Shown here: positions 7,156 to 29,927 of the stretch, piece by piece | How positions within the stretch are numbered: position 1 is the first letter of the stretch | Layout of the letters: the number at the start of each line of letters is the position of its first letter | From: Bacteroidota bacterium | Lineage (GTDB): Bacteria > Bacteroidota > Ignavibacteria > SZUA-365 | Assembly: GCA_003246455.1 (NCBI GenBank) | Contig: QKAF01000015.1 | Location: 65,193 to 129,192 of the forward strand | Direction: 5' to 3' | Length of the DNA stretch: 64,000 nucleotides | Translations under genes and position numbers: made by a program | The notes under the pieces: generated by a model | Seen by the model: the letters and a program-made list of their open reading frames with translations, nothing else | Told to the model about the DNA's origin: nothing | Database searches by the model: none

Positions 7156-7163
7156 GTGATCAC

Positions 7164-8075: not shown

Positions 8076-8085
8076 GGGCTGTCCT

Positions 8086-9762: not shown

Positions 9763-9784
9763 ACGCGCTCTCGGCCGGACAGCA

Positions 9785-11098
9785 TCAACTGATCTGCTTG
9801 TTGATCAGCTGCCGCAGCCGTTTTTTATTGTTGGCGAAATTGATGGCTTCGTCTATACTGATGATGTTGCTCTTGAACAGCCGGAACAGGTCCTGTTCCA
9901 TGGTGATCATACCGAGTGCTCCGCCCTCGGTGATCATCTGGTAGATCTCTCCGGTGTTCCCGTTCTTGATCGCCGCCCGTACGGACGGGGTCACGAGCAG
10001 GACTTCCTTGGCAAGCACCCGCTTGCGATCAAGCGTGGGGACAAGCTTCTGAGAGATGACCAGCTTGAGGACATCCGCGAGACGGTTGCGGACGCGATCC
10101 TGTTCCTCCGGCGGCACTTCGCCGATGATGCGGTCGATGCTTTCGACAGCGGCGGAAGTATGCAGCGTCGAAAAAACCTTGTGACCGGAGTCCGTGATTT
10201 CCAGCGCCGACATGATCGTCTCCGGGTCGCGCATCTCACCGATCACGACGATGTCGGGGTCCTGGCGCAGCGCCTGTACCGTGCCGTCCTTGAACGACAT
10301 GACGTCTCGTCCCACCTCGCGATGCCGGACGACGGATCGCACGGGAGAATGGACGTACTCGATCGGTGCGCCAATGATAATGATGTGCGAATCGACGGCA
10401 TTGTTGTTCGCATCGATGATCGCATCCAGCGTCGTGCTCTTTCCGGAACCGGTTATTCCCGTCACCAGGATCAAACCTTCCTTCGTGTTTTTGAGATTGA
10501 CGACGTTGGTGATATTCGGATGGAAGTTGTAGCTCGCGTACGGCCGGATTTTCGCGGTGATGGCGCGCATGTTCATTCCGAGCGCATCGAGATCGAAATA
10601 CGCCGTTCCGCGGTAGCGGAAGCGCTCCCCGTTCTCCTCGACGTGGTAGGAGAAATCGAGACTGCGGCGCTCGAGCAGCGTTTCCCGCTGCCGGGGCATG
10701 ACGAGGGACTGGATGAGCACGTCACAATACGGAGACTCCAGCCGCGGAAGATCTTTCTGCGGCAGCTTGCTGCCGTGAACGCGGAACCAAATTTCCCCGC
10801 GTGTGCCGAAGCTGCCGACGTCGATATCCGACGCCTCCAGATCGCGCATGCGTGCGATGATTCGCTCGTAAAACATCCGGAGGACCTGTATCGCCTTTTC
10901 ATCCAGCGATTCGATCTTTTTCTTTATGAACTCCTGTTTCTCGGTTCCGAAATAGTGCGTGGGCATGTCCTTGACGACGAAGTCCATGACCTTCATCGCA
11001 TTCGACAGGATACGCTCCGGAATAACAGGTTCCGCAGGCACGCGGACAGCGTCCTTCCTGATTGATGTTGCAGAGGTGGTTACGGGGTCTTGACTCAT
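9785..11098 (-). CDS. pilT: PilT-like pilus retraction ATPase
   Basis: This 437-aa hexameric secretion ATPase is of the PilT type. It has an N-terminal PAS-like domain (about 70-180), Walker A GITGSGKSTTLD, Walker B VVIGEMRDPETI and the His box STLHTSAAVESIDRI. PilT energises pilus retraction at the inner membrane. The Asp box, usually IEDPIEFVH, reads IGAPIEYVH, so its acidic pair is lost, while the Walker B glutamate is kept. The N-terminus is about 60 residues longer than in classical PilT. It belongs to the minus-strand pilus run but is preceded by a 155-bp AT-rich gap that could hold its own promoter. Confidence 0.88.
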   Translation of the reverse strand: MSQDPVTTSATSIRKDAVRVPAEPVIPERILSNAMKVMDFVVKDMPTHYFGTEKQEFIKKKIESLDEKAIQVLRMFYERIIARMRDLEASDIDVGSFGTRGEIWFRVHGSKLPQKDLPRLESPYCDVLIQSLVMPRQRETLLERRSLDFSYHVEENGERFRYRGTAYFDLDALGMNMRAITAKIRPYASYNFHPNITNVVNLKNTKEGLILVTGITGSGKSTTLDAIIDANNNAVDSHIIIIGAPIEYVHSPVRSVVRHREVGRDVMSFKDGTVQALRQDPDIVVIGEMRDPETIMSALEITDSGHKVFSTLHTSAAVESIDRIIGEVPPEEQDRVRNRLADVLKLVISQKLVPTLDRKRVLAKEVLLVTPSVRAAIKNGNTGEIYQMITEGGALGMITMEQDLFRLFKSNIISIDEAINFANNKKRLRQLINKQIS

Positions 11099-11154
11099 AA
11101 TGCCTGCTGTCGGGTGTTCACAGATTCAATTGAGGTTCGGTGCTCTTTGCTAAA

Positions 11155-11223
11155 CCTGTGCTTCACCTTTTTAACCGGATGCATTGAAATATAATTATTT
11201 AATTCTCTCATGGGAAGCACAGG
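11155..11223 (-). promoter_or_regulatory. Inverted repeats around an AT-rich stretch upstream of pilT
   Basis: Two perfect 10-bp inverted arms, CCTGTGCTTC (11155-11164) and GAAGCACAGG (11214-11223), lie 49 bp apart. The stretch between them is very AT-rich and contains TATATT on the minus strand. It sits in the 155-bp gap between the third minor pilin gene and pilT. It could be paired binding sites bracketing an internal promoter, or a long RNA hairpin. Nothing links it to a known regulator. Confidence 0.35.
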
Positions 11224-11253
11224 AAGAAAAAATAGTGCAAAAATTTCTCCGGG

Positions 11254-12291
11254 TTATTCCCAGTATTTGAAGACCTCGACGCCCAGCAGACCGAGGTTTC
11301 CGAGTACGGTCATGAGCGTCGTGTAGCTGTACGCAACCGAGGGATTCCCCGTCACGTTCACATGCGTGACTTTCGTCGGATCGGTATTGCCGACCCATAC
11401 GGTGCCGAGGATTGCCGGCGTACCCGTACCGCCGAGCGACAGGATGACATCTCCCGACATCGCGAGAATAATGCCCTTCCACTCGATTTTTCCTTTCATG
11501 ATAAGCTGACCGTCAACCACGAGAATCCCCGCTCCCGAGATCGTCCCCGACCAGCTGAGGTTTCCTGGGACGTACACGATTTCCGGCTGACTGATCGTCC
11601 CGTAAACCGCATTGTTGGAGTAGGTACCCGCTGGGATCGTGATGGTCCGGCGGTCGCGGTAGAACTGATGAAGCTGTGTGAGGTTCGATGAACTGAACGA
11701 ACCAACGCTGCCCACACCGCTGGCACCGATCACCCTGCTGGCAATTGATCCTCCGGACGCGGAATCGAGCTGCTTCTTTACGTCCGCGACCGATTCGTCG
11801 GTCTGCACGCCGATTCCTTCCACTGCGGGATAGATGCCCGGGCTGCCGTCGAGGTTGTGATCATGACCGTCAATTAAAAACGCCTTTCCGTCACTGGTTA
11901 CTTCAACGGAGTCGCCGAAGACCGTCAGCGCGCTTTCGACCGTCGGGAAAATCGAGCTGAGTTTTGCCTCCAGCACGGAATTGTGGCTGACGCCGTTGAT
12001 CGTTCCGACCGCGGTAATGCGCACCGTATCGAGGCCGATGTCAATGATGCGGACGGAGACCGTCCCTCCCACAACCGGGAAATTGCTGTATCCTGTCCGC
12101 CACGTTTTCTGCTGCCGCAGCTTCGAGATGGCGAGGTTGATTCCGCTTCGAGTCACATTAAGCGCCTGTTCCCGTTCGAACAGACTGGCGGTGGTCTCGT
12201 TGGAGTAGTCCCAGGCGCCCATGAAACCGAGCACGGACACGCCCACGAGCAGCGAGGATAATGCGACGATGATGAGTGCTTGCTGACCCAT
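11254..12291 (-). CDS. PilX-like minor pilin/assembly protein
   Basis: This 345-aa protein has an N-terminal hydrophobic helix that starts almost at once (MGQQALIIVALSSLLVGVSVLGF), then an amphipathic helix NVTRSGINLAISKLRQQKTWRTGY and a large beta-rich region. The arrangement (pilin helix, repeated-element helix, long beta-helix-like body with IVYVPGNLSWSG, GILVVDGQLIMKGKIEWKG) resembles PilX/GspK-type minor pilins that cap or prime the pilus. No K/R-rich leader, prepilin peptidase site or Glu5 is present. It is third in the trio of minor pilin-like genes, 14 bp after the second. Function is inferred from position and architecture. Confidence 0.6.
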   Translation of the reverse strand: MGQQALIIVALSSLLVGVSVLGFMGAWDYSNETTASLFEREQALNVTRSGINLAISKLRQQKTWRTGYSNFPVVGGTVSVRIIDIGLDTVRITAVGTINGVSHNSVLEAKLSSIFPTVESALTVFGDSVEVTSDGKAFLIDGHDHNLDGSPGIYPAVEGIGVQTDESVADVKKQLDSASGGSIASRVIGASGVGSVGSFSSSNLTQLHQFYRDRRTITIPAGTYSNNAVYGTISQPEIVYVPGNLSWSGTISGAGILVVDGQLIMKGKIEWKGIILAMSGDVILSLGGTGTPAILGTVWVGNTDPTKVTHVNVTGNPSVAYSYTTLMTVLGNLGLLGVEVFKYWE

Positions 12292-12305
12292 GGAGCTTCT
12301 CCGTT

Positions 12306-12860
12306 TTACAGATTCTGGGGGGTAATGGTGAATTCGTTCAAGGAATACTGATACTCCCCGTTCACCTTCATGTCGCTTTGCATGCGAAGGCTCACACCGA
12401 TCGCCATGATGCTGGAAATGCTCGTGGTCTTCGTCATCGCACCGTAGGTATCGGTGGTGAAATAGTTGAAGCGGAAAGCCGTCAGCCCGAGATCCTGTCC
12501 GCGCTGTTTTCTTCCATTGACGATCCGGTACAGCAGCGACCCGCTTTTCTCGCTGATGAGGGCGCTCGCCGTTCCGTAATAATACCCTACGGTATCGAGC
12601 TTCCCGTCATTCTCGAGGTCTGCCCGGAACACGAAGCAGTTCTCATCCGCGCGCAGGATCGGAAGTGTGTCGCAGCCGTAGCCGACTTTTCTCAGATCGA
12701 AACGCATCGTTTCGGTCACGTCGCTCATATCGGTCTGCGCCGTGATCTTATTCGTGCTCTCAATCTGCGACTCGGTGCGTTCCCCCATGAAAAAGGAGAA
12801 ATTGAGAATGATCATGCCTGCGATGATGACCGATCCGATGATATCAAGGTGACTGCTCAT
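12306..12860 (-). CDS. PilW-like minor pilin
   Basis: This 184-aa protein has an N-terminal membrane helix (about 6-25), then an amphipathic stretch with TDMSDVTETMRFDLRKVGYGC and a small beta domain. The pattern of a helix followed by an MRFDLRKVGY-type segment is typical of PilW/PilJ minor pilins, where a shortened helix precedes a globular head. Cysteines near 62 and 74 could pair. It starts 1 nt after the stop of the preceding gene, so translation is coupled. There is no classical prepilin cleavage motif. Specific role not provable from sequence. Confidence 0.55.
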   Translation of the reverse strand: MSSHLDIIGSVIIAGMIILNFSFFMGERTESQIESTNKITAQTDMSDVTETMRFDLRKVGYGCDTLPILRADENCFVFRADLENDGKLDTVGYYYGTASALISEKSGSLLYRIVNGRKQRGQDLGLTAFRFNYFTTDTYGAMTKTTSISSIMAIGVSLRMQSDMKVNGEYQYSLNEFTITPQNL

Positions 12861-12861
12861 G

Positions 12862-13374
12862 TTAAAACGCCGCGATATATGACATGGTTACTGTGTCGGG
12901 AGAAAATTCATTGGAGACGGTGACGGTCACGAGCTTCGAGAACGTGCGCGTGGTCGTCGGAATGGATGGCGTGGTGGGCTGGACGAAGGTCACCCGGACG
13001 GAAACCGTGTAGCCCCAGGTATCCCAGAGACATTTCGGCGTCGTGACCGTCGGTGTCGTTCCCGGGGCGGGACTGCGGAAGACCGAACCGTGAAAGTCGT
13101 CGACGTCGGGGAATCCCGGATATTTTTCGGTGTAGGCTGGTCCGCAGCTGCTGAGGTCGGTGACCCTGACGATACTCGTCGCCGTCAGCTTCTGATCGTA
13201 CACCTTCGATTTGATCTCATCGATCATCGAGCGGGCGATGGCCACCGCTTTCTGCGTGTATTCGTTGCTGTCAAGCACGTCCTCGTTCTGGAAATTGGCG
13301 GCGCGGAAGTTCAGCATCACTATTCCCAGCAGCATGAACGCCGCAATCGTGAGCATCATCTGTCCTGTGTTCAT
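12862..13374 (-). CDS. PilV-like minor pilin
   Basis: This is a 170-aa protein with an N-terminal hydrophobic helix (MNTGQMMLTIAAFMLLGIVMLNF), an amphipathic continuation (KAVAIARSMIDEIKSKVYDQ) and a Thr/Pro-rich beta domain containing two cysteines (near 77 and 115). The segment AIARSMIDEIKSKVYD is like the conserved helix of PilV/GspI minor pilins. It is the first of three minor pilin-like genes, 75 bp after pilB. No peptidase site or Glu5 is seen. Together the trio could form the priming tip complex of the pilus. Confidence 0.55.
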   Translation of the reverse strand: MNTGQMMLTIAAFMLLGIVMLNFRAANFQNEDVLDSNEYTQKAVAIARSMIDEIKSKVYDQKLTATSIVRVTDLSSCGPAYTEKYPGFPDVDDFHGSVFRSPAPGTTPTVTTPKCLWDTWGYTVSVRVTFVQPTTPSIPTTTRTFSKLVTVTVSNEFSPDTVTMSYIAAF

Positions 13375-13449
13375 TCCTGCCTCTGTTTATCACGCATTGA
13401 CCGGTTACCTGTTTCGCTCCGCGGCACCTTGCACGCGGCGACACGCTCA

Positions 13450-15246
13450 TTATTCATCAGACATCGTTGCGGCGATGACCTCGGCAACGGAGGTTACACC
13501 TTCCTTGACGCGTTCCCGCGCACTCGCGCGCAGGGTCAGCATTCCCTGACTGATCGCGATGGTGCGGATCTTGTCTTCATCGATATCGTCGCCGGAATCG
13601 AATACCGCCTTGCGGATTTCTTTCGAGAAAAACAGCGACTCGTGAATGGCCGCGCGTCCCTTGTAGCCCTTGATGCAGTGCTGACACCCGACAGGTTCAA
13701 AAAATGTCGTGGTTTCAATTTCTTCCGGTGTGAAGCCGACATTGAGCAGTTCCGCTTCATCGAGATCCCGGGTCGGCCGCTTGCACTTCTGGCAGAGCCG
13801 GCGCACGAGGCGCTGGGCGACTACGAGGTTGATGGCGTACGCGATGAGGAAGGGCTCGATACCCATCTTGAAGAGTCGGGTGACCGCGCTGGGGGCATCG
13901 TTGGTATGAAGCGTGGAAAATGTGAGGTGACCCGTGTTCGCGAGCTTGATCGCGATGTCCGCCGTCAGCTTGTCACGCATCTCACCGACCATCACGATAT
14001 CCGGATCGTGTCGCAGAATCGCGCGGATAGCCTGTTCGAAATCCACCTTGTGGGATATCTTGATCTGCCGCGCGCCGTCGATCACGTACTCGACCGGATC
14101 CTCCACCGTCAGGGCATTGACCTGTGGCGTGATCACCGAATACAGCGCGGCGACGAGCGTCGTGCTTTTGCCGCTTCCGGTCGGACCGGTCAGGATGATC
14201 ATTCCCTGCGGTTTCGAGATCGATTCCTGGAACCACTCGAAGGCCTTCGGCTGAAATCCGATCTTGGAAATATCCTTGATCACCTTCCTGCTGTCGAGCA
14301 CGCGGATGACGATGCTCTCGAACTTCTGCGCGAACTCGGAGCCGGCGATGGGAAGAGCCGACACACGGAATCGGATGATGACGTTGTCGATCGTCCGCTG
14401 GATGAAACCGTCCTGTGCGGCATCACGCTCGAAGCGATCGATATTCATGCTTCGATCCTTCACCACGGCCAGCACCGCTTCCGGACGCGTTCCTTCGACC
14501 TTGTTCCACAAGGCCAGCTTTCCATCGACGCGGAAGTGGAACTCCGTGACCAGTTTCGTGGTCGGGAAGATATGGATATCGCTCACGCCCGTCCGTACCG
14601 CCTCGACCAGGCAGCCCTCGAACAGGTTGACCAGCATGCTTTTGTTGATTTCCTGGTCGAGCTCCGCTTCGTCGATGCCGGATTCCATGTCCGACTCATG
14701 CAGTTCGGCTTCCATCTCCTTGATGCTCTCGAGGAAGATGTTGTCGCCGCGGAGAATGTTGTCGAGATGGGGCTGCAGCGCCTTGAGTTCCGCGTAATAG
14801 ACTTCGTACTTCAGCGCGCGGAAATAGCTGGCGATACGCGGAATCTCCCGATGGATCGGGACCGCGGACACGAGGACGAGCTTGTCCGGGGTACGGGCGT
14901 CGAACTGCAGAGGCAGCGTCCGCGCCTTGAACAGCATGGATTTCTGCTCCGGCGTCAGTGAATCGACCATCTGCTTGATGACACTCAGACGGCGTTCGGT
15001 CATCGCCTCGTCGATCTTCAGGGTTTTGAACGCGTAGATCCGCGCGACCTCCGAGAAGACCGTATGATGATCGAGCGCGTACTCATCGACGAGTATCTCC
15101 GCAAGGCTGCGATGCTTGTGACCCGCTTCCTTCTCCTTCGTGGCAATCGCCTTGGACACGGTTTCCCGGTCGACGATCCCCTTGTGGAGAAGAGCGATGC
15201 CGACTTTATCGATTTTCCGTTCCAGTAAGGAAGCTGCGGCATCCAT
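13450..15246 (-). CDS. pilB: PilB/GspE-type pilus extension ATPase
   Basis: This 598-aa ATPase has an N-terminal T2SSE_N/MshEN-like domain (LLHKGIVDRETVSKA, LAEILVDEYALDHHTV). The core has Walker A TGPTGSGKSTTLV, Asp box VEDPVEYVIDGARQ, Walker B DIVMVGEMRD and the His box TFSTLHTNDAPSAVTRL. A zinc-binding module with CQKC and CQHC separates the extension ATPases from PilT. PilB powers pilus assembly by turning PilC. The start overlaps the end of pilC by 41 bp, which implies translational coupling. Length and motif order are normal for the family. Confidence 0.93.
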   Translation of the reverse strand: MDAAASLLERKIDKVGIALLHKGIVDRETVSKAIATKEKEAGHKHRSLAEILVDEYALDHHTVFSEVARIYAFKTLKIDEAMTERRLSVIKQMVDSLTPEQKSMLFKARTLPLQFDARTPDKLVLVSAVPIHREIPRIASYFRALKYEVYYAELKALQPHLDNILRGDNIFLESIKEMEAELHESDMESGIDEAELDQEINKSMLVNLFEGCLVEAVRTGVSDIHIFPTTKLVTEFHFRVDGKLALWNKVEGTRPEAVLAVVKDRSMNIDRFERDAAQDGFIQRTIDNVIIRFRVSALPIAGSEFAQKFESIVIRVLDSRKVIKDISKIGFQPKAFEWFQESISKPQGMIILTGPTGSGKSTTLVAALYSVITPQVNALTVEDPVEYVIDGARQIKISHKVDFEQAIRAILRHDPDIVMVGEMRDKLTADIAIKLANTGHLTFSTLHTNDAPSAVTRLFKMGIEPFLIAYAINLVVAQRLVRRLCQKCKRPTRDLDEAELLNVGFTPEEIETTTFFEPVGCQHCIKGYKGRAAIHESLFFSKEIRKAVFDSGDDIDEDKIRTIAISQGMLTLRASARERVKEGVTSVAEVIAATMSDE

Positions 15247-16654
15247 GGTAGATCCGTTTCAGATAGTGAGCAAATGGTCCGGTGGCGATAAGCATGTGGA
15301 GGTACCAGAAATCACCCATGCCGGGGGCGGATTTCGGTTTGATCACGGCCGTCTCCGAGGAGACGATGGTAATGGCCGTCATGACGATCATGATGATGAG
15401 GGCGACCCACAGCTGCATGAAATCCACGACCGACTTCAATTTGTAGGTGGTTTCACGCTCGTAGTAGTTCGCCAGCTGGAGAGCGGTCTCCCTGACCATA
15501 CCGGTTTCGGCTCCTGCGTGAAAACGTGAGAGCGCGGTCTTCGTGAACACGCCGGCGGCTTCGAACGACTCGTGCAGACCCTTTCCGTGCTTGAGCATCA
15601 TGGGGATGGTAATGAAGCGAATCTGATGCTCGAAGTACTTGTTCCCGGTCGCCTCCGCGGCGGTCTTGATCACGTCGATGTTCTCGCCCGAGCCGCTGTA
15701 CAGCGAGTAGAACACACGGCAGAACACTTCGATCGCGGTTTTGTGGATCAGGCCGCCGAGCACCGGAATGCGGAAGGACTGCTTGTCGGCCCAGAGACGG
15801 CCCTTCTCGTTTGTGAAGAACATGAAAATTCCGACGCCGATGCCGATAATCGCGACAATGAAATAGAGGATATTCGCGACAATCCAATCCGACAGCTCGA
15901 GTGTCGCTTCCGTCATTGGCGGCAGCTCGATCCCGTACTTGAGGAACATGCGGGCAGTTTCCGGGAAGATGTACGCGACGTAAAAGATCGTCGCGAGAAT
16001 CAGAAGCACGAGGGTGATCATCGGCATGAGCATGGCGCTTTTCATGCTCTTCTTGAATTCCATCCGCCGCTCGAGGAACTTCGCCGTCGAATCGTACATC
16101 TCCGCCATGGCGCCGCTCTTCGAGGCGAGACCGAGCATCTTCGCGGTGAATTTCCCGAGAATGTGTTCGTACTTCATGAACACACGCTCGCTCTCCGCTC
16201 CCTTGCGCAGATCGGTGTTGATGTCCTTGAGCGTTTCCTTCAGCACCTTGTTTTCGATGTCGTTCGCCAGAAGATTCAACACCTCGTTGAAGGGCAGCTT
16301 CTCACGCAGCAGATCCGCGCTCAGGCGGACGAAGGTGATCAGGTCGGCCACGGGCGGTTTGCCCAGATTGATATTCAGTTTCTTGCGGACATAGACGACC
16401 TTGTACCCCATCGAAGTCAGCGCATTGTCGACCTCCGCCTTCGAGTACGCTTTCTGTTCGCCTTCCAGGACTTTATCGCCCTTCTGCGCCTTGTATACGT
16501 ACGACGTACGCTTTTCGAGCTTGTCGAGGCGAAATGCGCGTCCTTTCGACAGCTCCTGAATTTTCTTCTTCGCCTCGGCGGCGTTTCCCGCGGAAATCGT
16601 CCCCTGGATGATTTTCCCCGAGGGTCCGACGCCCTGGAATCTGAAGTCTGCCAT
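15206..16654 (-). CDS. pilC: PilC/GspF-type inner-membrane platform protein
   Basis: The protein is 482 aa with the family layout: a basic N-terminal domain with Ala-rich helix (about 1-100), the first T2SSF domain (LITFVRLSADLLREKLPFNEVL, about 105-225), membrane helices near 205-230 and 260-285, the second T2SSF domain (about 310-430) and a last membrane helix (LWVALIIMIVMTAITIV). It anchors the pilus motor in the inner membrane. The frame reads further upstream, but the chosen ATG begins the conserved MADFRFQG segment and has an AAAGGA ribosome site. It is first in the pilus assembly run and has its own copy of the conserved composite promoter element. Confidence 0.92.
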   Translation of the reverse strand: MADFRFQGVGPSGKIIQGTISAGNAAEAKKKIQELSKGRAFRLDKLEKRTSYVYKAQKGDKVLEGEQKAYSKAEVDNALTSMGYKVVYVRKKLNINLGKPPVADLITFVRLSADLLREKLPFNEVLNLLANDIENKVLKETLKDINTDLRKGAESERVFMKYEHILGKFTAKMLGLASKSGAMAEMYDSTAKFLERRMEFKKSMKSAMLMPMITLVLLILATIFYVAYIFPETARMFLKYGIELPPMTEATLELSDWIVANILYFIVAIIGIGVGIFMFFTNEKGRLWADKQSFRIPVLGGLIHKTAIEVFCRVFYSLYSGSGENIDVIKTAAEATGNKYFEHQIRFITIPMMLKHGKGLHESFEAAGVFTKTALSRFHAGAETGMVRETALQLANYYERETTYKLKSVVDFMQLWVALIIMIVMTAITIVSSETAVIKPKSAPGMGDFWYLHMLIATGPFAHYLKRIYHGCRSFLTGTENR

Positions 16655-16738
16655 GCTTTTTTCCTTTCTTATCCTACTTCCTGAGAGTGCCTGCAAGTGT
16701 TGAGATACAACGTGCATATGCCTGCACCCTCACGCAGT

Positions 16739-16783
16739 AAGTTAGGGCGCCATTCTTAACAGAGACTTAAACGGGGATTACAA
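16739..16783 (-). promoter_or_regulatory. Composite promoter element upstream of pilC (copy 3 of 3)
   Basis: Read on the minus strand this holds box 1 TTGTAAT at 16783, box 2 GTTAAGAAT 22 bp on, 7 bp of GC-rich spacer, then a -7 box TAACTTAC beginning at 16744. The 32-bp two-box part agrees with the pilin copy at about 21 of 32 positions, with both ends (7 bp each) identical and the same 7-bp spacing to the -7 box. It ends 98 bp upstream of the pilC ATG; the pilin copy lies 97 bp upstream of its ATG. There is no TTTG at the -33 position. Confidence 0.6.
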
Positions 16784-16872
16784 AGCCGAAAGGATGCCGG
16801 GGGGGTAACGTGAAATGCGGCCGGGGATTTTTTCGTCATGCGGAAATACTAACCCCTTCAACAGGGGCGGGT

Positions 16873-17289
16873 TCACCATCCCGCAAAAGCCACGGAGAGA
16901 CGCCGGGAAGGATCCGCCGGCCGCATGTCGACCAGGACCGTGACCGATTTTGAGGGATCCGTTGCGGACGTCGCGCGGATGCTGACGGTCATTCCTTCCG
17001 CATCGGCGATCGAAAAGACGCCGCTCAGATTGTGCCCTTCTCCCCTTGCGTCCGCTTCCATCCCGCAGTCGCGAATCGTGATGCCGTCGAAACTGTTGTT
17101 CCCTCCGCCGAGCATGGCGGGGGTCTGGAAATATCCCTGGGCGTTGGATGCCAGCTTCAGGCAGTCCTGCGCAAGCGCGTCCCTGCTCGACTGTTCCGCG
17201 CTCTGATCAAAGAAAAGCAGGGATATCGCCACGGCGATTCCGACAACAACGACTCCCAGGACGATCATCAGTATCTGCTGCGAACCCAT
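16873..17289 (-). CDS. Small pilin-like protein, paralogue of the upstream gene
   Basis: This 138-aa protein has an N-terminal hydrophobic helix that begins at residue 3 (MGSQQILMIVLGVVVVGIAVAISLLFF), then an amphipathic helix with DCLKLASNAQGYF and a beta domain. It is clearly related to the next gene upstream: both share the MG-x-QQ start, the LGGGNNSF-GIT core and a second cysteine in DCGM, so a conserved disulfide is likely. Size and layout suit a pilin subunit, but there is no charged leader, no cleavage site before a Phe/Met and no Glu5. A short weak hairpin (CCCCT/AGGGG, 16853-16867) follows the stop on the minus strand. A terminator separates it from its paralogue, so it may be expressed less. 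Confidence 0.55.
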   Translation of the reverse strand: MGSQQILMIVLGVVVVGIAVAISLLFFDQSAEQSSRDALAQDCLKLASNAQGYFQTPAMLGGGNNSFDGITIRDCGMEADARGEGHNLSGVFSIADAEGMTVSIRATSATDPSKSVTVLVDMRPADPSRRLSVAFAGW

Positions 17290-17337
17290 GGCTGCACTCC
17301 TTCCGATCCTTCAGCCGAACCTGTGACAGCGTACAAA

Positions 17338-17367
17338 GACGCCGCTGCCCGTACGGACAGCGGCGTT
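17338..17367 (-). terminator. Terminator after the first pilin-like gene
   Basis: A GC-rich hairpin with arms ACGCCGCTG and CAGCGGCGT closed by a further inner CCGTACGG dyad lies between the two pilin-like genes. On the minus strand it is followed by CTTTG, a short U-tract. It would end most transcripts of the upstream pilin and leave partial read-through into the second one. Confidence 0.65.
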
Positions 17368-17406
17368 GAACCGAATGCTATAATCAGAGAGGATAGTCCT
17401 CAGTGC

Positions 17407-17808
17407 TTACCAGGCCGTGTAGTCAACCGTCACGCGGGTCTCATCCGTGGTCTGTGTCATATCCACGTTGACGGTGACGGATTTTGTCGCATCGGTGGCC
17501 GATACGCCCGTGACGGAGAATGCATCAGCTGCGCCGGTGACGGTGTAGGTACCGTTGACGTTGGAGCCGTCAGCCGCCATACCGCAATCCTCGAGCGTGA
17601 TACCGTTGAAGGAGTTGTTACCGCCACCGAGCATGGTCGGCTTGCGATAGAAACCCTGAGCGGCCGACGCGAGGCGGAGGCAATCCTGGGTGATGGCATC
17701 CTTGTTGGCCTGCTCTGCGTTGGTACCAAAGATATTGATACCGACCACAACTGCGATACCGACGATAATGACACCGAGAACGATGAGAAGAAGCTGTTGC
17801 GTACCCAT
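17407..17808 (-). CDS. Small pilin-like protein, candidate major pilin
   Basis: This is a 133-aa protein: a membrane helix from residue 3 (MGTQQLLLIVLGVIIVGIA), amphipathic extension (NKDAITQDCLRLASAAQGFY), then a beta-rich head with LGGGNNSFNGITLEDCGM and a Thr-rich end. Two cysteines, also kept in the paralogue, probably form a disulfide. It lies behind two copies of the composite promoter element, has its own terminator and a good ribosome site (CAGGAGA), all expected for an abundant subunit. It lacks the classical type III leader and Glu5; if a prepilin peptidase acts, the only candidate site is after Gly2. That it is the major pilin is inference from context. Confidence 0.6.
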   Translation of the reverse strand: MGTQQLLLIVLGVIIVGIAVVVGINIFGTNAEQANKDAITQDCLRLASAAQGFYRKPTMLGGGNNSFNGITLEDCGMAADGSNVNGTYTVTGAADAFSVTGVSATDATKSVTVNVDMTQTTDETRVTVDYTAW

Positions 17809-17889
17809 AACAAATCTCCTGGAAAATGGTGAAGAGAGAGTGAATGTTTAGAAAAGGAACCTTGTTTTCTTACTGCGAAAATCTACTGT

Positions 17890-17936
17890 CCAAGTTATGC
17901 GGCAATTCTTACAAAGGGCTGAATTCTGAATTACAA
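17890..17936 (-). promoter_or_regulatory. Composite promoter element upstream of pilin gene (copy 1, proximal)
   Basis: On the minus strand: box 1 TTGTAAT (from 17936), box 2 TTGTAAG 22 bp later, 7 bp, then -7 box TAACTTGG (17897 to 17890). The -7 box fits the Bacteroidota consensus TAnnTTTG in all but one place, but no TTTG lies 19-21 bp upstream. Two direct repeats two helical turns apart next to a -7 box suggest an activator site replacing the -33 box. It begins 97 bp upstream of the start codon. Confidence 0.62.
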
Positions 17937-18020
17937 CGATGTAACATTTGGCGGGGAGTGTGACTGTCGTGGTGGAGCATCGTACGTATCGTCTCGCTGG
18001 CCTGATAAATGTTACAGAGG

Positions 18021-18067
18021 CCAATTTATAAGGCGAATCTTACAAACCGCTGAATGCTGCATTACAA
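18021..18067 (-). promoter_or_regulatory. Composite promoter element upstream of pilin gene (copy 2, distal)
   Basis: This has the same layout as the proximal copy: TTGTAAT from 18067, TTGTAAG 22 bp later, 7 bp, then TAAATTGG (18028 to 18021). The 32-bp two-box part matches copy 1 at 27 of 32 positions. It lies 131 bp upstream of copy 1 and just downstream of the sensor kinase gene, so it could give a second start for pilin mRNA. Confidence 0.58.
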
Positions 18068-18139
18068 GAGTGAAAGGTACGAACAGGCGGGAGCGGAAGG
18101 CGGGGCGAGCTTTTAATCAGACTATCGGGTATTATTCTT

Positions 18140-19192
18140 CTATTTGCCGATATTGCGTAGCGGGAGGCGCACGGTGAACGTACTGCCCTCACCCGGCACA
18201 CTCTGGACATCGATGGTTCCCCCGTGATTCTTGACGATCCAGTGCACGAGGTAGAGTCCGAGCCCCGTGCCCTTTGTCCCCTGTTTCTCTGAATCGTTCA
18301 CGCGGTAGAAACGCTCGAACAGGCGCGGGATGGCTTCATGCGGAATGCCGATTCCCGTATCCTGCACATGCACGGCGACAAAATCGTCCTCCCGTTCCAT
18401 CGAAAGCCGCACGGTGCCGTTTTTTCTGTTGTACTTGACAGCGTTATCAATGAGGTTGAGAAGCACGCGGCGAATGCGCAGCGGTTCCGCCTCGATGAAC
18501 GCGTCAATGGTCTCTCCCAGTTCGAATTTTATTCCGGTCTGTTCCGCAAACATTTCCGCTTCGTCGGCGAGTTCCTCGACCAGTTCGCGAAGATCGACCG
18601 GGGACAGTTCAATCGGACGCTCGCCGATCTCCGTCTTCGCGATGAGCAGAAGGTCGTCGAGAATGCGGGACAGGCGCATGATTTCTTCATGAAGACTTCC
18701 GAGCAGCTGCTGGTACTGATCGGGAGTCTTCGGGTTGCGGAGTGCGAGCTCGATCTCCCCGCGCATGATCGTCAGCGGTGTCCGCAGTTCATGCGAGGCG
18801 TTGGCCGAGAACGTCTGAATCTGTTCATACGCCGTCTGCATGTTCTTGATGGTGCTGTGCACCGTGTGCATCTTGTCCCGGAAATCCTCCTCCCTGTCAT
18901 CGCCGTCTCCCGCCATGCCCACGCGAAAGGTGTCACGCTGTTTTTTCGGATGCAGCTCCTGGGAGATGATCCAGCCGATCGCCAGCGCGAAAAACAGGCC
19001 TGCGGGGATGAACAGGATTCCGATGCCCGTGAACGTCGATCGGTAGCGTTCGAGGACGCTGGCGTCAAAGATGTTGAGGGAATAGAAATGCTGCGTGAAG
19101 ATCGTGATGACCAGAAGGAAGATCAGCACGAAGGCCCCGAAAATCGTCGAAGAATAGAGAAGAATGGCTTTCTGTCGCGCACCGAGCGTCAT
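18140..19192 (-). CDS. Sensor histidine kinase of an OmpR-type two-component pair
   Basis: The protein is 350 aa. Two membrane helices (about 10-32 and 56-76) flank only about 23 periplasmic residues. A linker with an acidic patch follows, then the HisKA domain with His134 in ASHELRTPL and a complete ATPase domain (NLIDNAVKYN, DTGIGIP, GTKGTGLGLYL). The very short external loop suggests that it senses the membrane or a protein partner rather than a soluble ligand. Its ATG overlaps the stop of the response regulator gene (ATGA), so the two are co-translated. It lies directly upstream of the pilin-like genes on the same strand. Confidence 0.9.
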   Translation of the reverse strand: MTLGARQKAILLYSSTIFGAFVLIFLLVITIFTQHFYSLNIFDASVLERYRSTFTGIGILFIPAGLFFALAIGWIISQELHPKKQRDTFRVGMAGDGDDREEDFRDKMHTVHSTIKNMQTAYEQIQTFSANASHELRTPLTIMRGEIELALRNPKTPDQYQQLLGSLHEEIMRLSRILDDLLLIAKTEIGERPIELSPVDLRELVEELADEAEMFAEQTGIKFELGETIDAFIEAEPLRIRRVLLNLIDNAVKYNRKNGTVRLSMEREDDFVAVHVQDTGIGIPHEAIPRLFERFYRVNDSEKQGTKGTGLGLYLVHWIVKNHGGTIDVQSVPGEGSTFTVRLPLRNIGK

Positions 19193-19866
19193 TCTTCTTC
19201 ATCCTTGAGAATGTACCCTACCCCGCGGATGGTATGAATGAGCTTCACATCGAAGTCGTCGTCCACTTTCTTGCGAAGGCGCGTCATGTACACGTCGAGA
19301 ACGTTCGTCCCCGTATCAAAGGTGATTTCCCAGATGTGCTCGATGATGGCCGAGCGCGTGAGAACGGTGTTCTTATTGCGAAGGAGGTACTCCAGGAGCT
19401 TGAACTCCTTCACGGTCAGATCGATCACGGTACCGCCCCGCTTCACGATATGCTGAATCTGATCGAGTTCCAGCGTATCCGCGCCGAGCACGTTGCTCGG
19501 TTTGTCCATCTGCGCGCGCCGCAGAAGCGAGCGGACGCGGGCGATGCACTCGGCAAGCGCAAAGGGTTTGGTCAGGTAGTCATCCGCCCCGATGTTGAGC
19601 ACCTCGACCTTGCTTTCGAGCTGCCCTTTCGCGGTCAGCACGAGCACGGGGGTCGATTTCTCCTTGCGGAGTTCCTTCAGGACCTCGACGCCATTCATCT
19701 TCGGGAGCATGAGGTCGAGGATGATGACATCGTAGCTTTCCGTCATCGCCAGGAACAAGCCCTGCTCCCCATCCTGCGCGGTGTCGACGGAAAATAATTC
19801 TTCTTCAAATCCTTTTTGAAGAAACTGGGAAACCTTGATTTCGTCTTCTACGATAAGAAGTCTCAT
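19189..19866 (-). CDS. OmpR/PhoB-family response regulator
   Basis: This 225-aa regulator has a receiver domain with phospho-acceptor Asp51 (VIILDLMLPKMNG), the acidic pair in VEDE and Lys100 (YLTKPF). A winged-helix DNA-binding domain follows (LTVKEFKLLEYLLRNKNTVLTR, TNVLDVYMTRLRKK, IHTIRGVGYIL). Proteins of this type bind as dimers to tandem direct repeats upstream of -10 boxes. It is co-transcribed with its kinase and is the nearest DNA-binding regulator to the repeated TTGTAA boxes of the pilin and pilC promoters. That it binds those boxes is inference. Confidence 0.92.
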   Translation of the reverse strand: MRLLIVEDEIKVSQFLQKGFEEELFSVDTAQDGEQGLFLAMTESYDVIILDLMLPKMNGVEVLKELRKEKSTPVLVLTAKGQLESKVEVLNIGADDYLTKPFALAECIARVRSLLRRAQMDKPSNVLGADTLELDQIQHIVKRGGTVIDLTVKEFKLLEYLLRNKNTVLTRSAIIEHIWEITFDTGTNVLDVYMTRLRKKVDDDFDVKLIHTIRGVGYILKDEEE

Positions 19867-20020: not shown

Positions 20021-21310
20021 TCAGTTCTCGGGCTGCCTCACCGGCAGGGCGAAACTGAACTGCGATCCCTTCCCGGGTTCGCTCTGGAGCCAGATCCGGC
20101 CGTTGTGCTTTGATACGATGCTCTCTGCGATGGCGAGTCCGAGGCCGGTGCTCTTCTCGTTGCCCGTCGGCTTGACGCTGGTCGTACTGAAGGGTTTGAA
20201 GAGACGACCCTGCTCCTTTTCGGGAATTCCCGGGCCGTGATCCCGTACAGAGAACATGACTTCCGCATCGTCCCACTGGATCGACACTTCGATGGCGGAA
20301 CCCTTGAAGGAGAATTTGATGGCGTTGTCGATCAGATTCCCCATCACCTGTTCGATGCGGGAAGGATCGAAGAGAAAGTGCGGGATGGTGTCGGGCAGCG
20401 AGACGGCGATGTCCACCCCTTTGTTCTTCGAAGCGAAGGCGCTGCGCTCGATCACATTCCGGACCAGCTGGGCGAAATCCGCCATCTCCAGTTTCAGGTC
20501 CATTTTTCCCGTTTCGATTTTATGGACGTCGAGCAGGTCATTGATCATCTGCACCATGTAGGTGCTGCTGCTCTGTATCGCGGAAATGATCGTCCGCTGA
20601 TCCTCTGATATGTTCTCGCTGTTTTCCTTCAGCAGGAAGTCGCTGTAGCCCTCGATCAGGTAGAGGGGATTCCGGAGGTCGTGCGCGGCCATGCCGAGGA
20701 GCATGTTCTTCTGTTCGTTGAGCTGCTTGAGCTGTTCGTTGCTTTTTTCGATTTCTTCCTGCACCGCCCGCAGCTTCTTGTTCGCCTGCTCGAGTTCCCG
20801 GTTCTTCTCCACGGCGTTCTCGTAGGTGGAAAGCAGAAGATCGATGATCTGGATGCGTTCCGAGGTCAGATAGTGCTTCTTGTTCGCAAAGTAGATCTCG
20901 ATCCCCATGCCCGTGCGCATGCGCGTACGAACGTCCATGTTGATCAGGATGTACTTGATGCGCGAGAGCAGCGCCTCTTCGCTGTAGGGTTTGTTGAGGA
21001 AATTGTCGGCGCCGCTTTCCAGGCCGCGGATGATGTCCTGCGGGTCGGAGAGCGTGGTCAGCAGGATGACCGGAATGCTGCTCAGTTCGTCATCGGCCTT
21101 GATGCGGGTGCAGAACTCGTACCCGTCCATCTCCGGCATCAGCACATCGGAAATGATCATGGTCGGACGACGCTGCGCGATGGCCTCGAGCCCTTCCCTG
21201 CCGTTTGTCGCGAGACGGACCGCGTATTCCTGTTTCTCGAGAATGTACTTGAGTTTCAGTGCCTGGGTCGGGCTGTCTTCGACGACAAGGATTTCAATTC
21301 CGGTTGACAT
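20021..21310 (-). CDS. Response regulator-histidine kinase (REC-coiled coil-HisKA-HATPase)
   Basis: This is a 429-aa soluble protein. An N-terminal receiver (Asp55 in MIISDVLMPEMDG, NKPYS lysine) is followed by a helical linker and coiled coil (about 165-200), a HisKA domain with His210 (MAAHDLRNPLYLIEGY) and a HATPase domain (NLIDNAIKFSF, DHGPGIP, STGLGLAIAESIV). It is the last gene of the chemosensory operon, starting 1 nt after the cheB stop. With no CheY in the operon, its receiver could take phosphate from CheA and pass the signal on to its own kinase core; this is inference. Confidence 0.88.
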   Translation of the reverse strand: MSTGIEILVVEDSPTQALKLKYILEKQEYAVRLATNGREGLEAIAQRRPTMIISDVLMPEMDGYEFCTRIKADDELSSIPVILLTTLSDPQDIIRGLESGADNFLNKPYSEEALLSRIKYILINMDVRTRMRTGMGIEIYFANKKHYLTSERIQIIDLLLSTYENAVEKNRELEQANKKLRAVQEEIEKSNEQLKQLNEQKNMLLGMAAHDLRNPLYLIEGYSDFLLKENSENISEDQRTIISAIQSSSTYMVQMINDLLDVHKIETGKMDLKLEMADFAQLVRNVIERSAFASKNKGVDIAVSLPDTIPHFLFDPSRIEQVMGNLIDNAIKFSFKGSAIEVSIQWDDAEVMFSVRDHGPGIPEKEQGRLFKPFSTTSVKPTGNEKSTGLGLAIAESIVSKHNGRIWLQSEPGKGSQFSFALPVRQPEN

Positions 21311-21311
21311 G

Positions 21312-22424
21312 TTATTCCTGTTCTGCGGTATTCGGGTGCACGTGGTATCCGTCGCCCGTGTCTTTGTTCACTGCGGACTGTGCCGCGGTCAGCGAAAGCA
21401 GCGCGTGACCGATTTCCTGCACCGGCAGCACGGAGCTGACCGCGGATAATTTGATCGCCTCACCCGGGATGCCATGGATGAGGGAGGTGTCCTTATCCTG
21501 CGCGATCGTTACCGCACCGGCCTGGTGGAGATGGAGCATTTCCTGTGCGCCGTCGTTACCCATTCCCGAGAGGACGATCGCGACCGCGTGCCCGCCATAC
21601 GTCTCGTGGACGCTGGAAAACAGACGCGCGATGGAAGGTTTGAATCCGTTGATCGGCTCGTCGTCAGCGAGAAGAATACAATGTTTTCGGTCAACTGTCA
21701 AATGCACATCATCCGGTGCGAGGTACACGGTTCCCGCCGACAGCGGCGCCCCGTTTTCCGCGATCAGCACCGTGAGTTCCGTCTGTTCATCCAGCCATCC
21801 CGCCAGTCCCCGGAGGTACCCTTTCGCGATGTGCTGTACCACGAGAATCGGCAGCGGGAATTCGGCCGGCAGGTGTGAAAACACCTCCTGCAGCGCCTTG
21901 GTCCCTCCTGCCGAAGCACCGATGACGACGATATCGACATGCAGATTTTCCTTCCCCGCCGGGTGAAGGTCCTGCGGAACACGGGTCAGCGACTCGAGTC
22001 TCGCGCTGTCCCAGCGTCGCACCACCTTTACCTCGGACATCAGTCGGAGGCTTTTCGACAGCTGCTCGGCGAAAACCGGCTCGTCCGGGCTGCCCGTGTA
22101 TGCCGGAAGGGTCAGCAGGCTGAGCGCTCCGGCGTCAAGCGCGCCGGCTGCCTCGAGTTCGTCGCCCCGCTGGTTCTCCATCGTCAGGACCACTAAGGGA
22201 ACGGGATGCCCTTCCATGATGGCACGGGTGACTTTCGTGACGCTTTCCCAATCGTGCCCCCCTTCCACAGCCACGATCTCCGCCCCGGAGGATGCGAGCT
22301 GCGCGATGACATCCGTGATCCCGTACATGGTACGGACGATCTGGATGTCGTCGCGGCGTACGCACAGCTGTTCGAGACGCTGTGCCCATCCGACGGTAAA
22401 TGCTATGGAAAAGACCCTCACCAT
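21312..22424 (-). CDS. cheB: CheB-type protein-glutamate methylesterase with degenerate receiver
   Basis: The protein is 370 aa. The C-terminal half is a complete CheB methylesterase: Ser171 in VVIGASAGGTKAL, His198 in VVQHIAKGYL and Asp291 in LSGMGNDGA form the catalytic triad. It removes methyl groups from receptor glutamates. The N-terminal 130 residues keep a receiver-like size and pattern, but the phospho-acceptor position reads IVAVEGG (Glu54, no Asp), the upstream acidic pair is missing, and the lysine position is SLLTLP. The domain cannot be phosphorylated in the normal way, so activity may be constitutive or set by protein contact. It lies 1 nt after cheA. Confidence 0.9.
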   Translation of the reverse strand: MVRVFSIAFTVGWAQRLEQLCVRRDDIQIVRTMYGITDVIAQLASSGAEIVAVEGGHDWESVTKVTRAIMEGHPVPLVVLTMENQRGDELEAAGALDAGALSLLTLPAYTGSPDEPVFAEQLSKSLRLMSEVKVVRRWDSARLESLTRVPQDLHPAGKENLHVDIVVIGASAGGTKALQEVFSHLPAEFPLPILVVQHIAKGYLRGLAGWLDEQTELTVLIAENGAPLSAGTVYLAPDDVHLTVDRKHCILLADDEPINGFKPSIARLFSSVHETYGGHAVAIVLSGMGNDGAQEMLHLHQAGAVTIAQDKDTSLIHGIPGEAIKLSAVSSVLPVQEIGHALLSLTAAQSAVNKDTGDGYHVHPNTAEQE

Positions 22425-22425
22425 G

Positions 22426-25173
22426 TCAAATCAGCCTCTCGATGACATCGATGAGGTTGCTTTGATCGAAACTGCTCTTGTTGATGTAGGCGTTGGCTCC
22501 GACGTCGAATCCGCGCTCCCTGTCTTCCTGCGTCTCAAGACCGGTGACGAGGATGAGGGGCGTCTCGTGCATCTTCTCGTCCTTGCGCACCGCCTCGGTG
22601 AGTTCGAAACCGTTCATGCGCGGCATTTCCACGTCGGAAACGATGAGATCGAAATGTTCCTCACGCATGTGCGTGAGAGCGTCGATGCCGTCGACGGCGG
22701 TTATCACTTCGTACCCCGAATTGACCAGGATGTCATGGAGGAGGACGCGTGAGGTAATCGAATCGTCCACGACCAGCAGGCGCTGGCGCTTCGTTTCCTT
22801 CGACGGCTGCTCGGACCTGCCCGGTGCGACCACACCGCGTGAGGCGTCGAAAAGGTCCGGAACCTGAAGGACGAGCACGAGTTCGCCGCTGCTGAGAAGC
22901 GTGGCGCCGGCGACCGTCCGAACCCGTGAAACCGGGGCAGGCAGCGGCTTGATCACGACGTCCTGTTCCCACAGAATATCGTCGACCTCGACGGCGAGCA
23001 GGTTGGATGAAAGACGAAGCAGAAGGACGATCGCCTGGGGCTTCTCCTCTCTCTTGCCCGCATTCTGGCCGGTCAGAATTTCTTCCAGCCTGCGGACAGT
23101 CACCGTCCGTCCGTGATAATCGATGACGGATTTTCCGTCCAGCTGGGAGAAGTTCTCGCGATGCACACTGATCCCGCGTTCGACGAACTGCAGCGGAACC
23201 ACGTAGAGCCGTCCCTGGCTGCGGACCAGCACGCCGCGCGCGTTCGAGAGCGACAGAGGGAGTGAAATCCGGAACAGGGTCCGTACTCCCTTCTCCGTCT
23301 CGATCTCGATTTCTCCGCCGAGCGAGAGGATGTTTTCACGAACGACATTGAGTCCGACGCCGCGACCGGAGAGGTCGGTGATGATCGGGCTCGTGGTGAT
23401 GCCGGAAAGGAAAACGAGATCCAGCGCATCCCGGTCGGTAAGCTTGCGGGCCTTTTCCTCCGTCAGCAGTCCGTCGGCGACGGCCTTTTTCTTTACACGC
23501 TCGATGTCGATGCCGCGTCCGTCGTCTTCGAGGAGGACCTCGATTCGATTGTCCCGCGCGGTCTGGATTGTGAGGGTAATGTTCCCCGTCACGGATTTCT
23601 GTGCCTTCGCCCTGGCCGCGGTGTCCTCGATACCGTGATCGAGGCTGTTGCGCAGCAGATGGAGGAGCGGGTCCTTCAGTGCCTCGAGTATCCGTTTGTC
23701 GATGCGGATTTCATCGCCCTGCACCTGGAAGCGGACCTCCTTGTTCAGATCGCGCGCGAGCTTGCGCACCATCGGCGGCAGCGGGTCGGTGACGAGCGAG
23801 AACGGCAGGAGGAGAAGCTGCTTCGCATTCTCCATCATCACGTCGGACATGCTTTCCATGATGTACATCGTGCCGCGGCCGTCTTCGAGATTCTTCCCCA
23901 CCGCCGACTCGATACCTTCGACCTGGCGCGCGGTCCATTTCATGAAATTCTGCAGCTTCTCGTACTGCCCGGAATAGTAGTCCGCATCCCGTTTCCGGCC
24001 GACAGAGAACTGCGTCTCTTCCAGTACACTCTGACGCTGCTTGTGGTACTCGCGAATCCACTCGCGGCACTGATCCATAACCCGCCGAAGATCCGCGGCG
24101 TGTCGACCGAGCATGAACTTGATGCTGCTGAGTTCCTCTGTCTGACGGTAGAGCGACTCGAGTTCTCCGATCGGAACGCGTATCGTGTCCTTGACGCTGC
24201 GGAATGCCGTACCGGTTCCCGGCACTGCCATCCCGTCTTTTGGAGACGCCTCGTCCCGTTTCGCTCCCGCGGGCGCCGGTGCGGCGGTTTTGGCAGTGTC
24301 CGCGAATTCCTTCACCGGCTCCGCGCTGCTGGTCGCTGTGATATCGAGCGGCGCCTGAGCCTGATCCGGCTTCCCTGCCGGCGTTCCGGCACGCAACCCT
24401 TCATTCTCGGAAATGCCCGACTCGGACGTCCCGTGTGTCGGCGTGGACGACAGGCGGTGCGTCCCGTTGCCGTTTGCAGGCGCCTGGTGTCCCGCGAGGG
24501 ATGAAAGTCCTGGAATACGATCGAGTCCCGGAATGGTCGGGAGTCCGGGAATCGACGAAAGGCTCCGCGCCGCCGGCTGCTTCGGAACTACATTCACGTT
24601 CGACTCAGCATCCCCACTCGACGAGGCTTCCCCGCTCGAAGACAGCGTCGAGTCGGCGGGATGGTTCGATGCGGAATTATCCGACGGCAGCGCATCCTCC
24701 GGAGAATATCCTGCTGATCGCGGATCCGATTCTGATATCGTCGGCGCTGCGCCCCCGGCCGCGCTGCGTGCTCCGCTCTTGCTGCTCAGTTCCTTCAGTG
24801 TCTCGACGATCTGCTCGAGGGGCTCATACGTCAGCGGGAATTCCGCATCGCTCGTGAGCATTTCTCCGAGCAGGTCCACGGCAATGGCGCTTGCATCGAA
24901 CTGCTCGCGTGTCGCGAGATTGGGATCTTTCTTCCAGATGGAAAACAGGCTTTCGAGAGACTGGCAGACCGCTTCGATATCGGCACGGTTGATCGCGCGT
25001 GCCGCGCCTTTCAGACTGTGGGCTTCGCGGAAAATGAGCTCGATCACTCCCTGGCGCTCACCGTTGGCGGTGTGCTCCAGATCGCTCAGGCATTTGCTTA
25101 TCGTGCGGAAGTGTTCGTCCGCTTCTATCGCAAATGCTTCACGCAGCTTTTGAAGAAATTCGACTTCGTTCAT
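22426..25173 (-). CDS. cheA: CheA-type chemosensory histidine kinase with C-terminal receiver
   Basis: The protein is 915 aa. An Hpt domain (His52 in REAHSLKGAARA) is followed by a long low-complexity Ser/Pro/Ala linker (about 130-300, with the repeated tetrapeptide IPGL), a dimerisation/helical region (about 320-430) and the ATPase domain (LLRNSLDHGIED, DDGRGID, SGRGVGLNVV). A CheW-like domain (about 640-760) and a receiver with Asp847 (LIVSDVEMPRMNG) complete it. The order matches hybrid CheA proteins of Frz and Pil-Chp type systems. It starts 23 bp after the mcp gene. The attached receiver may act as phosphate sink or output because no separate CheY is present. Confidence 0.93.
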   Translation of the reverse strand: MNEVEFLQKLREAFAIEADEHFRTISKCLSDLEHTANGERQGVIELIFREAHSLKGAARAINRADIEAVCQSLESLFSIWKKDPNLATREQFDASAIAVDLLGEMLTSDAEFPLTYEPLEQIVETLKELSSKSGARSAAGGAAPTISESDPRSAGYSPEDALPSDNSASNHPADSTLSSSGEASSSGDAESNVNVVPKQPAARSLSSIPGLPTIPGLDRIPGLSSLAGHQAPANGNGTHRLSSTPTHGTSESGISENEGLRAGTPAGKPDQAQAPLDITATSSAEPVKEFADTAKTAAPAPAGAKRDEASPKDGMAVPGTGTAFRSVKDTIRVPIGELESLYRQTEELSSIKFMLGRHAADLRRVMDQCREWIREYHKQRQSVLEETQFSVGRKRDADYYSGQYEKLQNFMKWTARQVEGIESAVGKNLEDGRGTMYIMESMSDVMMENAKQLLLLPFSLVTDPLPPMVRKLARDLNKEVRFQVQGDEIRIDKRILEALKDPLLHLLRNSLDHGIEDTAARAKAQKSVTGNITLTIQTARDNRIEVLLEDDGRGIDIERVKKKAVADGLLTEEKARKLTDRDALDLVFLSGITTSPIITDLSGRGVGLNVVRENILSLGGEIEIETEKGVRTLFRISLPLSLSNARGVLVRSQGRLYVVPLQFVERGISVHRENFSQLDGKSVIDYHGRTVTVRRLEEILTGQNAGKREEKPQAIVLLLRLSSNLLAVEVDDILWEQDVVIKPLPAPVSRVRTVAGATLLSSGELVLVLQVPDLFDASRGVVAPGRSEQPSKETKRQRLLVVDDSITSRVLLHDILVNSGYEVITAVDGIDALTHMREEHFDLIVSDVEMPRMNGFELTEAVRKDEKMHETPLILVTGLETQEDRERGFDVGANAYINKSSFDQSNLIDVIERLI

Positions 25174-25196
25174 GACGCTGTTGTACCGGGAGTGAA

Positions 25197-26993: not shown

Positions 26994-27010
26994 GATCAGA
27001 CCTCTTTTTC

Positions 27011-29777: not shown

Positions 29778-29927
29778 TCTTTCGGGAATCTGAATACCGG
29801 ATTAATAAAATGTAATCGTAAAACAGGGAACTGATTGGCGAGAATTCGCCGGGGTTTGCCGGAGGGTGTGGGGAGAGGATTCGCTATGGGCGGGATGTCG
29901 GCAGCGGAATAGCGGGCGAATACCCTG

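Follow-up and report, generated by a model that had tools for sequence, protein, structure and literature searches.

A candidate OmpR-family composite promoter at type IV pilus, chemosensory and surface-protein genes in an order of Bacteroidota

Promoters controlled by PhoB lack a -35 element, and PhoB recruits region 4 of the sigma factor (PMC4496699). The Pho boxes are direct repeats of 11 nt to which the protein binds head to tail (PMC4415409); those of E. coli are located close to the -10 box and take the place of the -35 element (PMC4971064). A further point of comparison is the TAnnTTGY box of Flavobacterium psychrophilum, which defines a separate promoter class tied to gliding genes among others (PMC9723704).

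A literature search for an OmpR-type pilus regulon in the group studied here, an order known mainly from metagenome assemblies, returned no relevant paper, which is not proof of absence. Here we analyse a 64,000-nucleotide stretch of DNA from one such genome (the window), in which a long promoter element recurs upstream of pilin, pilC and chemosensory genes. With a probability of about 0.82, we propose that this element is an activator-dependent composite promoter of the OmpR-family response regulator encoded at 19189-19866, through which pilus, chemosensory and surface-protein genes would be co-activated. All our conclusions are drawn from sequence. The proposed regulon is new, and its mechanism would be of a known kind.

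The element and the genes it precedes

Four copies of the element are present in the window. In the following list, scores are those of a matrix trained solely on sites from other genomes (the relatives-only matrix), and R1 denotes the sequence model of the element that was used for genome searches.

18021..18077, minus strand: copy A, distal pilin promoter (47-bp part 18021-18067); score 52.1
17890..17946, minus strand: copy B, proximal pilin promoter (47-bp part 17890-17936); score 48.0
16737..16793, minus strand: copy C, promoter of the pilC operon (47-bp part 16737-16783); score 46.8
29761..29817, minus strand: copy D, 5' of the CheW-first chemosensory operon (47-bp part 29761-29807); score 38.3, R1 E=5.9e-6

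Across 84 distinct sites the consensus unit consists of the half-sites YCTWAC, TGTAAT, ATTMAG and TGTAAG at an exact pitch of 11 bp (TnA cores at -8, 3, 14 and 25), followed by N10 and a -10 box of the form TAnnTTG, whose seventh position is G in 69% of the sites; conservation extends 47 bp upstream of this box. Tandem half-sites about one helical turn (10-11 bp) apart are a mark of composite promoters that depend on OmpR-family regulators. Copy A shows the half-sites CTTTCA, TGTAAT, ATTCAG and TGTAAG at the 11-bp pitch and the -10 box TAAATTGG (18028-18021), and copy B reads GTTACA, TGTAAT, ATTCAG and TGTAAG with TAACTTGG (17897-17890). The corresponding half-sites are CTTTCG, TGTAAT, TTTAAG and GTTAAG in copy C, with the box TAACTTAC (16744-16737), and ATTACA, ATTAAT, ATTCAG and CGAAAG in copy D, with TATCTTGC; the spacer is N10 in all four.

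The initial annotation had described three minus-strand copies built of two boxes. All three are present, copy C reaching 16737, 2 bp past the 16739 given there, but the fourth at 29761-29807 had been missed. TTGTAAT, a second box 22 bp on (TTGTAAG, TTGTAAG, GTTAAG) and the TAAATTGG/TAACTTGG/TAACTTAC box are indeed seen in each copy, and the match counts of 27 of 32 positions between the pilin copies and 21 of 32 between the pilC copy and that at 17890 hold, although the copy numbers had been swapped. Between the second box and the -10 box there are 10 bp where 7 bp had been given, while the distances of 97 and 98 bp to the gene starts become 81 nt (copy B to the pilin ATG) and 82 nt (copy C to the pilC ATG, 16654) when counted from the -10 box, their near-equality being preserved. 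Finally, both boxes are real, but the middle half-site (ATTCAG, ATTCAG, TTTAAG), lying exactly half-way at 11 bp, and the fourth (CTTTCA, GTTACA, CTTTCG), a further 11 bp upstream, had been overlooked.

The direct-repeat correlation among the half-sites peaks at lag 11. The inverted-repeat correlation of the core TAAT/ATTM half-sites is comparable to it, because TAAT/ATTA is self-complementary, so that it is the pitch that favours tandem over inverted binding. Inverted repeats were set aside as the main reading, since direct repeats fit both the 11-bp pitch and the way in which half-site types are exchanged; indeed, the last half-site of the pilC copies, GTTAAG, belongs to the type of the middle half-site, in support of a single protein reading direct repeats. 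Longer arrays also occur: two identical sequences with five consecutive 11-bp half-sites (G000:C158:16952-17018 and G000:C162:16350-16416) are found near two contig ends of this genome and probably represent one repeated locus split by assembly.

The genes of the pilus and chemosensory region, with the evidence for their assignment, are as follows.

5887..15246, minus strand: rest of the pilus operon, i.e. pilB, three pilin-like/minor genes, a pilT-like ATPase, pilM/N/O-like genes and the secretin (Pfam T2SSE, Secretin; ORFs)
15206..16654, minus strand: pilC (T2SSF), first gene of the pilus assembly operon (Pfam 6.3e-28)
16873..17289, minus strand: second pilin-like protein, 138 aa, 53% identical to the first
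17407..17808, minus strand: pilin-like protein, 133 aa (MGTQQLLLIVLGVIIVGIAVVVG...; context and predicted structure)
18140..19192, minus strand: membrane histidine kinase, proposed partner of the regulator (Pfam HisKA and HATPase_c)
19189..19866, minus strand: OmpR-family response regulator, proposed activator (receiver PF00072, 1.7e-29; Trans_reg_C PF00486, 2.7e-26)
20021..29777, minus strand: chemosensory genes CheW-CheR-CheW-MCP-CheA-CheB and a receiver-kinase (Pfam CheW, CheA; ORFs)

The labels of the minor pilins and of pilM/N/O follow from position and reading, and those of CheR, MCP and CheB from reading. PilC, PilB, a retraction ATPase and the secretin, which together define a type IV pilus locus, are represented by matches to T2SSF, T2SSE (two) and Secretin. 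A Pfam/NCBIfam search with the protein at 17407-17808 gave no match. Its AlphaFold2 model combines a long N-terminal helix (3-55) with a small sheet, and the top three Foldseek matches are type IV pilins, at non-significant values (E at least 0.27); taken together, context, model and these non-significant matches suggest that the protein is pilin-like. Both pilin-like proteins start with MG-[TS]QQLLLIVLG and thus have almost no leader and lack the usual GFTLxE motif, and the family is conserved across the class despite the absence of a Pfam/NCBIfam match.

Copy A is kept in the relatives G003 and G002, and a counterpart of copy B was found 5' of the pilin gene in the other genomes of the order that were examined. 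In this genome (G000), G003 and G002, a distance of 131-132 bp separates the two pilin promoters, and the sequence between them has diverged. G004 carries three pilin promoter copies, the entire promoter having been duplicated in tandem as a 105-bp unit (G004:C14:48963-49217, in L074), and G012 carries two about 101 bp apart; multiple pilin promoters therefore seem to have arisen more than once. Between the pilin promoters of the window lies a perfect 10-bp inverted repeat, TGTAACATTT / AAATGTTACA (17940-17949 and 18007-18016), which partially overlaps the fourth half-site of copy B and is kept in G003 and absent in G002.

Distribution of the element and the core promoter of the genome

The two-box pattern taken alone matches the window three times against 0.89 expected, a number reached by 7 of 100 shuffles. 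With the relatives-only matrix, the next best site in the window after the four copies scores -2.2, and the background reaches at most 9.8 in 30 first-order Markov windows and at most 7.5 in 400 kb of sequence from this genome. Among 53 sites unused in matrix building, three lie inside ORFs, compared with 78% of random control positions, and 45 precede an ORF start (51% in the control). When the pilC promoters of eight genomes are compared, identity is 97% within the boxes, 52% in the bases that separate them and 25% and 29% in the two flanks.

Absence of the element from syntenic relatives, which the initial annotation had named as the outcome that would speak against it, is not the case: R1 finds matches in all 16 genomes of the order (best E between 1e-10 and 1e-5). 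The pilin and pilC copies occupy the corresponding place in relatives, and the position equivalent to copy D is occupied in nine further genomes; the resulting figure of about ten genomes with an element 5' of the CheW-first operon includes some judged solely from the distance to the regulator gene. At E<=0.001 no match was obtained in 45 genomes of other families of the class (best 0.0056), and of 297 genomes drawn from across the phylum, only three that do not belong to the order fall below this threshold (best 6.3e-5), with one site each. The close relatives are listed as Bacteroidetes/Bacteroidota metagenome assemblies, and the more distant hits include a Melioribacteraceae and a Chlorobiota assembly. 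In the phylum family f31, arrays of TTTAAG type (L280, L281, L283) likewise combine an 11-bp pitch with N10 and a TAnnTT box and precede unrelated genes, namely one for a small zinc-ribbon-like protein and, in two genomes, one for a membrane protein; further OmpR-type regulators in the phylum therefore seem to share this geometry.

R1 locates 11 sites in this genome at E<1e-4, two of which are one sequence repeated at contig ends. Beyond the pilus region, unlinked elements recur before the same gene families in different genomes. These encode Hepar_II_III-like secreted proteins of about 875 aa, lipoproteins or secreted proteins (380-560 aa) whose C-terminal half is trypsin-like, repeat proteins (about 1000 aa) resembling SprB repeats, a PilX-like protein of 390 aa, minor pilins and a CHASE-HisKA kinase (the labels SprB, PilX and trypsin-like were given by reading, Pfam matches being weak or none). 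The description as a 'dedicated pilus switch' was accordingly too narrow, since the element also stands at the chemosensory-regulator operon, at SprB-like and other secreted proteins and at the CHASE kinase. The last of these bears the element in six genomes (L136, L141, L146, L153, L160, L172), in the variant form TTTTCAT...TGTTAAT. In G013-G015 there is one confident element per genome, so that a wide regulon is shown mainly for family f1.

The ordinary promoters of this genome were surveyed in 138 upstream regions from 400 kb (L259-L278). TTG-N20-TAnnTT occurs in 30 of the 138, other spacings giving 0 to 5, which agrees with the -33/-7 promoter expected of Bacteroidota. A TTG at the housekeeping N20 spacing is seen in 0 of the 84 elements, while the TAnnTT box is retained. 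The upstream core element is thus missing and regulator-type sites stand in its place, as in composite promoters dependent on OmpR-family proteins. Retention of TAnnTT without the -33 TTG suggests that an activator takes over the role of the upstream promoter element, and the promoters should be weak without it.

The candidate regulator and competing explanations

The product of 19189-19866, with its receiver domain and Trans_reg_C winged helix, is an OmpR/PhoB-type response regulator, and the kinase gene adjoins the regulator gene wherever the contig permits a view. Genomes of the order encode one to six OmpR-type winged-helix proteins. Clustering yields a single OmpR-family regulator family present in all 16, that of 19189-19866 (70-100% identity), the next clusters covering 12 genomes and then 10; the statement that this family is shared by all carries some margin, several genomes being fragmented and some incomplete. 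In G015, which is 70% complete, its member is the sole OmpR-family regulator detected. The recognition helix TNVLDVYMTRLRKK is found in every regulator copy that reaches it, with L changed to I in G014 and G015; at this place, members of the class that lack the element carry N[HK]LRNK or different variants. Two genomes, G007 and G012, have pilC at another location; there too the regulator-kinase pair adjoins an element and a gene for a pilin-like protein, and elements are also present at the distant pilC/pilin cluster. The 19189-19866 regulator is therefore most likely the protein that switches the element on, an identification built on co-occurrence, linkage and geometry. This agrees with the initial annotation, whose proposal of an OmpR-family composite promoter with this protein as the likeliest regulator is well supported by the comparative evidence, its anatomy having been incomplete.

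In the mechanism that we propose, the kinase (18140-19192) would phosphorylate the regulator, two dimers of which would bind head to tail on the four half-sites at 11-bp pitch, the last half-site ending 10 bp upstream of what would be an ordinary sigma-A -10/-7 box (TAnnTT). There the regulator would stand in for the missing -33 TTG and recruit RNA polymerase, as PhoB does. It would thereby co-activate the pilins, through two tandem promoters, and the pilus assembly operon, together with a scattered set of surface and secreted proteins. Both in the window and in G007, the chemosensory operon continues into the genes for regulator and kinase, which makes positive autoregulation likely, as the regulator would activate an element-bearing operon that carries its own genes. 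What the sequences show is the element with its architecture, conservation, downstream genes and missing -33 box, and its co-occurrence with this regulator; from this we infer that the protein binds there, that it activates and does not repress, that the kinase is its partner and that the loop exists. A bolder and still tentative extension, to which we lean less than to its contrary, is that chemosensory array, regulator-kinase pair and pilus constitute one self-reinforcing, switch-like surface-response circuit driven by the regulator and including the adhesin-like proteins and the CHASE kinase; were this true, a whole order of uncultured bacteria would switch to a piliated, adhesive state.

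The main alternative, unlikely in our judgement, keeps the composite promoter and assigns it to a different activator, either another OmpR-family member such as PhoB or an unrelated protein, with the linked pair as a neighbour or target. The regulator-site pairing is indeed indirect, the same co-occurrence could be displayed by a regulator from a different family, and the half-sites and their geometry resemble a Pho box (PMC4415409). Yet no other OmpR-family regulator is common to all 16 genomes and the pair stays beside the element in rearranged genomes. As for PhoB in particular, its equivalog models score the regulator at 186 bits against 296.2 and 165 against 270, and PstS-like genes (PF12849) have the element in none of eight cases from five genomes; a Pho regulon was rejected on these two counts. 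The closest NCBIfam model is that of heavy-metal regulators, TIGR01387, at 262.2 bits, below its curated cut-off of 279.2, and this family was rejected as well, so that the regulator is given neither name.

Considerably less probable is a reading in which the conserved boxes make up one long promoter for an alternative sigma factor. Such a class, TAnnTTGY, exists in F. psychrophilum (PMC9723704), and the prevalent G at the seventh box position here would suit it, but conservation at 11-bp pitch up to 47 bp from the -10 box goes well past a sigma footprint, and TAnnTT is also the core of the ordinary promoters of this genome. We regard it as just as improbable that the sites are operators for repression or anti-activation: activation is itself deduced from the arrangement of the sites, but these replace the -33 element instead of overlapping it, given that the housekeeping TTG is lacking throughout. 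The idea of chance similarity or of mobile-repeat copies can draw on the mild enrichment of the two-box pattern in the window and on the local 105-bp duplication in G004; it is already refuted, and its remaining probability is negligible, by the separation from background, the footprint and the intergenic placement, on which a chance origin was rejected, and also by the order-wide distribution and the unrelated flanks of different copies.

Relation to known regulatory systems

The composite promoter proposed for the 19189-19866 regulator amounts to a regulon defined from its binding site, promoter geometry, member genes and single best candidate regulator, all by sequence. Alongside PilS/PilR and sigma-54, it would provide type IV pili with an OmpR-type mode of control, with one promoter code joining pilus assembly, a chemosensory operon and adhesin-like secreted proteins, and it places otherwise unnamed secreted families in a pilus programme. 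The core promoter of the group, TTG-N20-TAnnTT, is provided along with it.

One close likeness is to the Pho boxes of PhoB/PhoP in E. coli and other bacteria, with which the element shares 11-bp direct repeats and the lack of a -35/-33 box. The sequence upstream of phoA in E. coli reads CTGTCATAAAG-TTGTCAC-N10-TATAGT, in which we take TATAGT to be the -10 box; the succession of last 7-mer, N10 and -10 box is the same in the element. The differences lie in the half-site sequence, in four half-sites as the standard unit, in the targets, which here are pilus, adhesin-like and chemosensory genes, and in a regulator that is not PhoB by curated models. The CusR/CopR/CzcR heavy-metal regulators likewise come close by their model (262 bits), whereas the regulator of the window falls below the cut-off, has an order-specific recognition helix and has no metal genes among its recurring targets. 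PilS/PilR-sigma-54 resembles the present system as a two-component system linked to pilin, but the regulator here is OmpR-type rather than NtrC-type; a sigma-54 pilin promoter was rejected, the -24/-12 site TGGCAC-N5-TTGCW having no match at these promoters with up to 2 mismatches. Finally, Pil-Chp-type chemosensory systems similarly place CheW/CheR/MCP/CheA/CheB genes beside pilus genes, while the operon described here ends in an OmpR-type regulator-kinase pair and shares the promoter element of the pilus genes.
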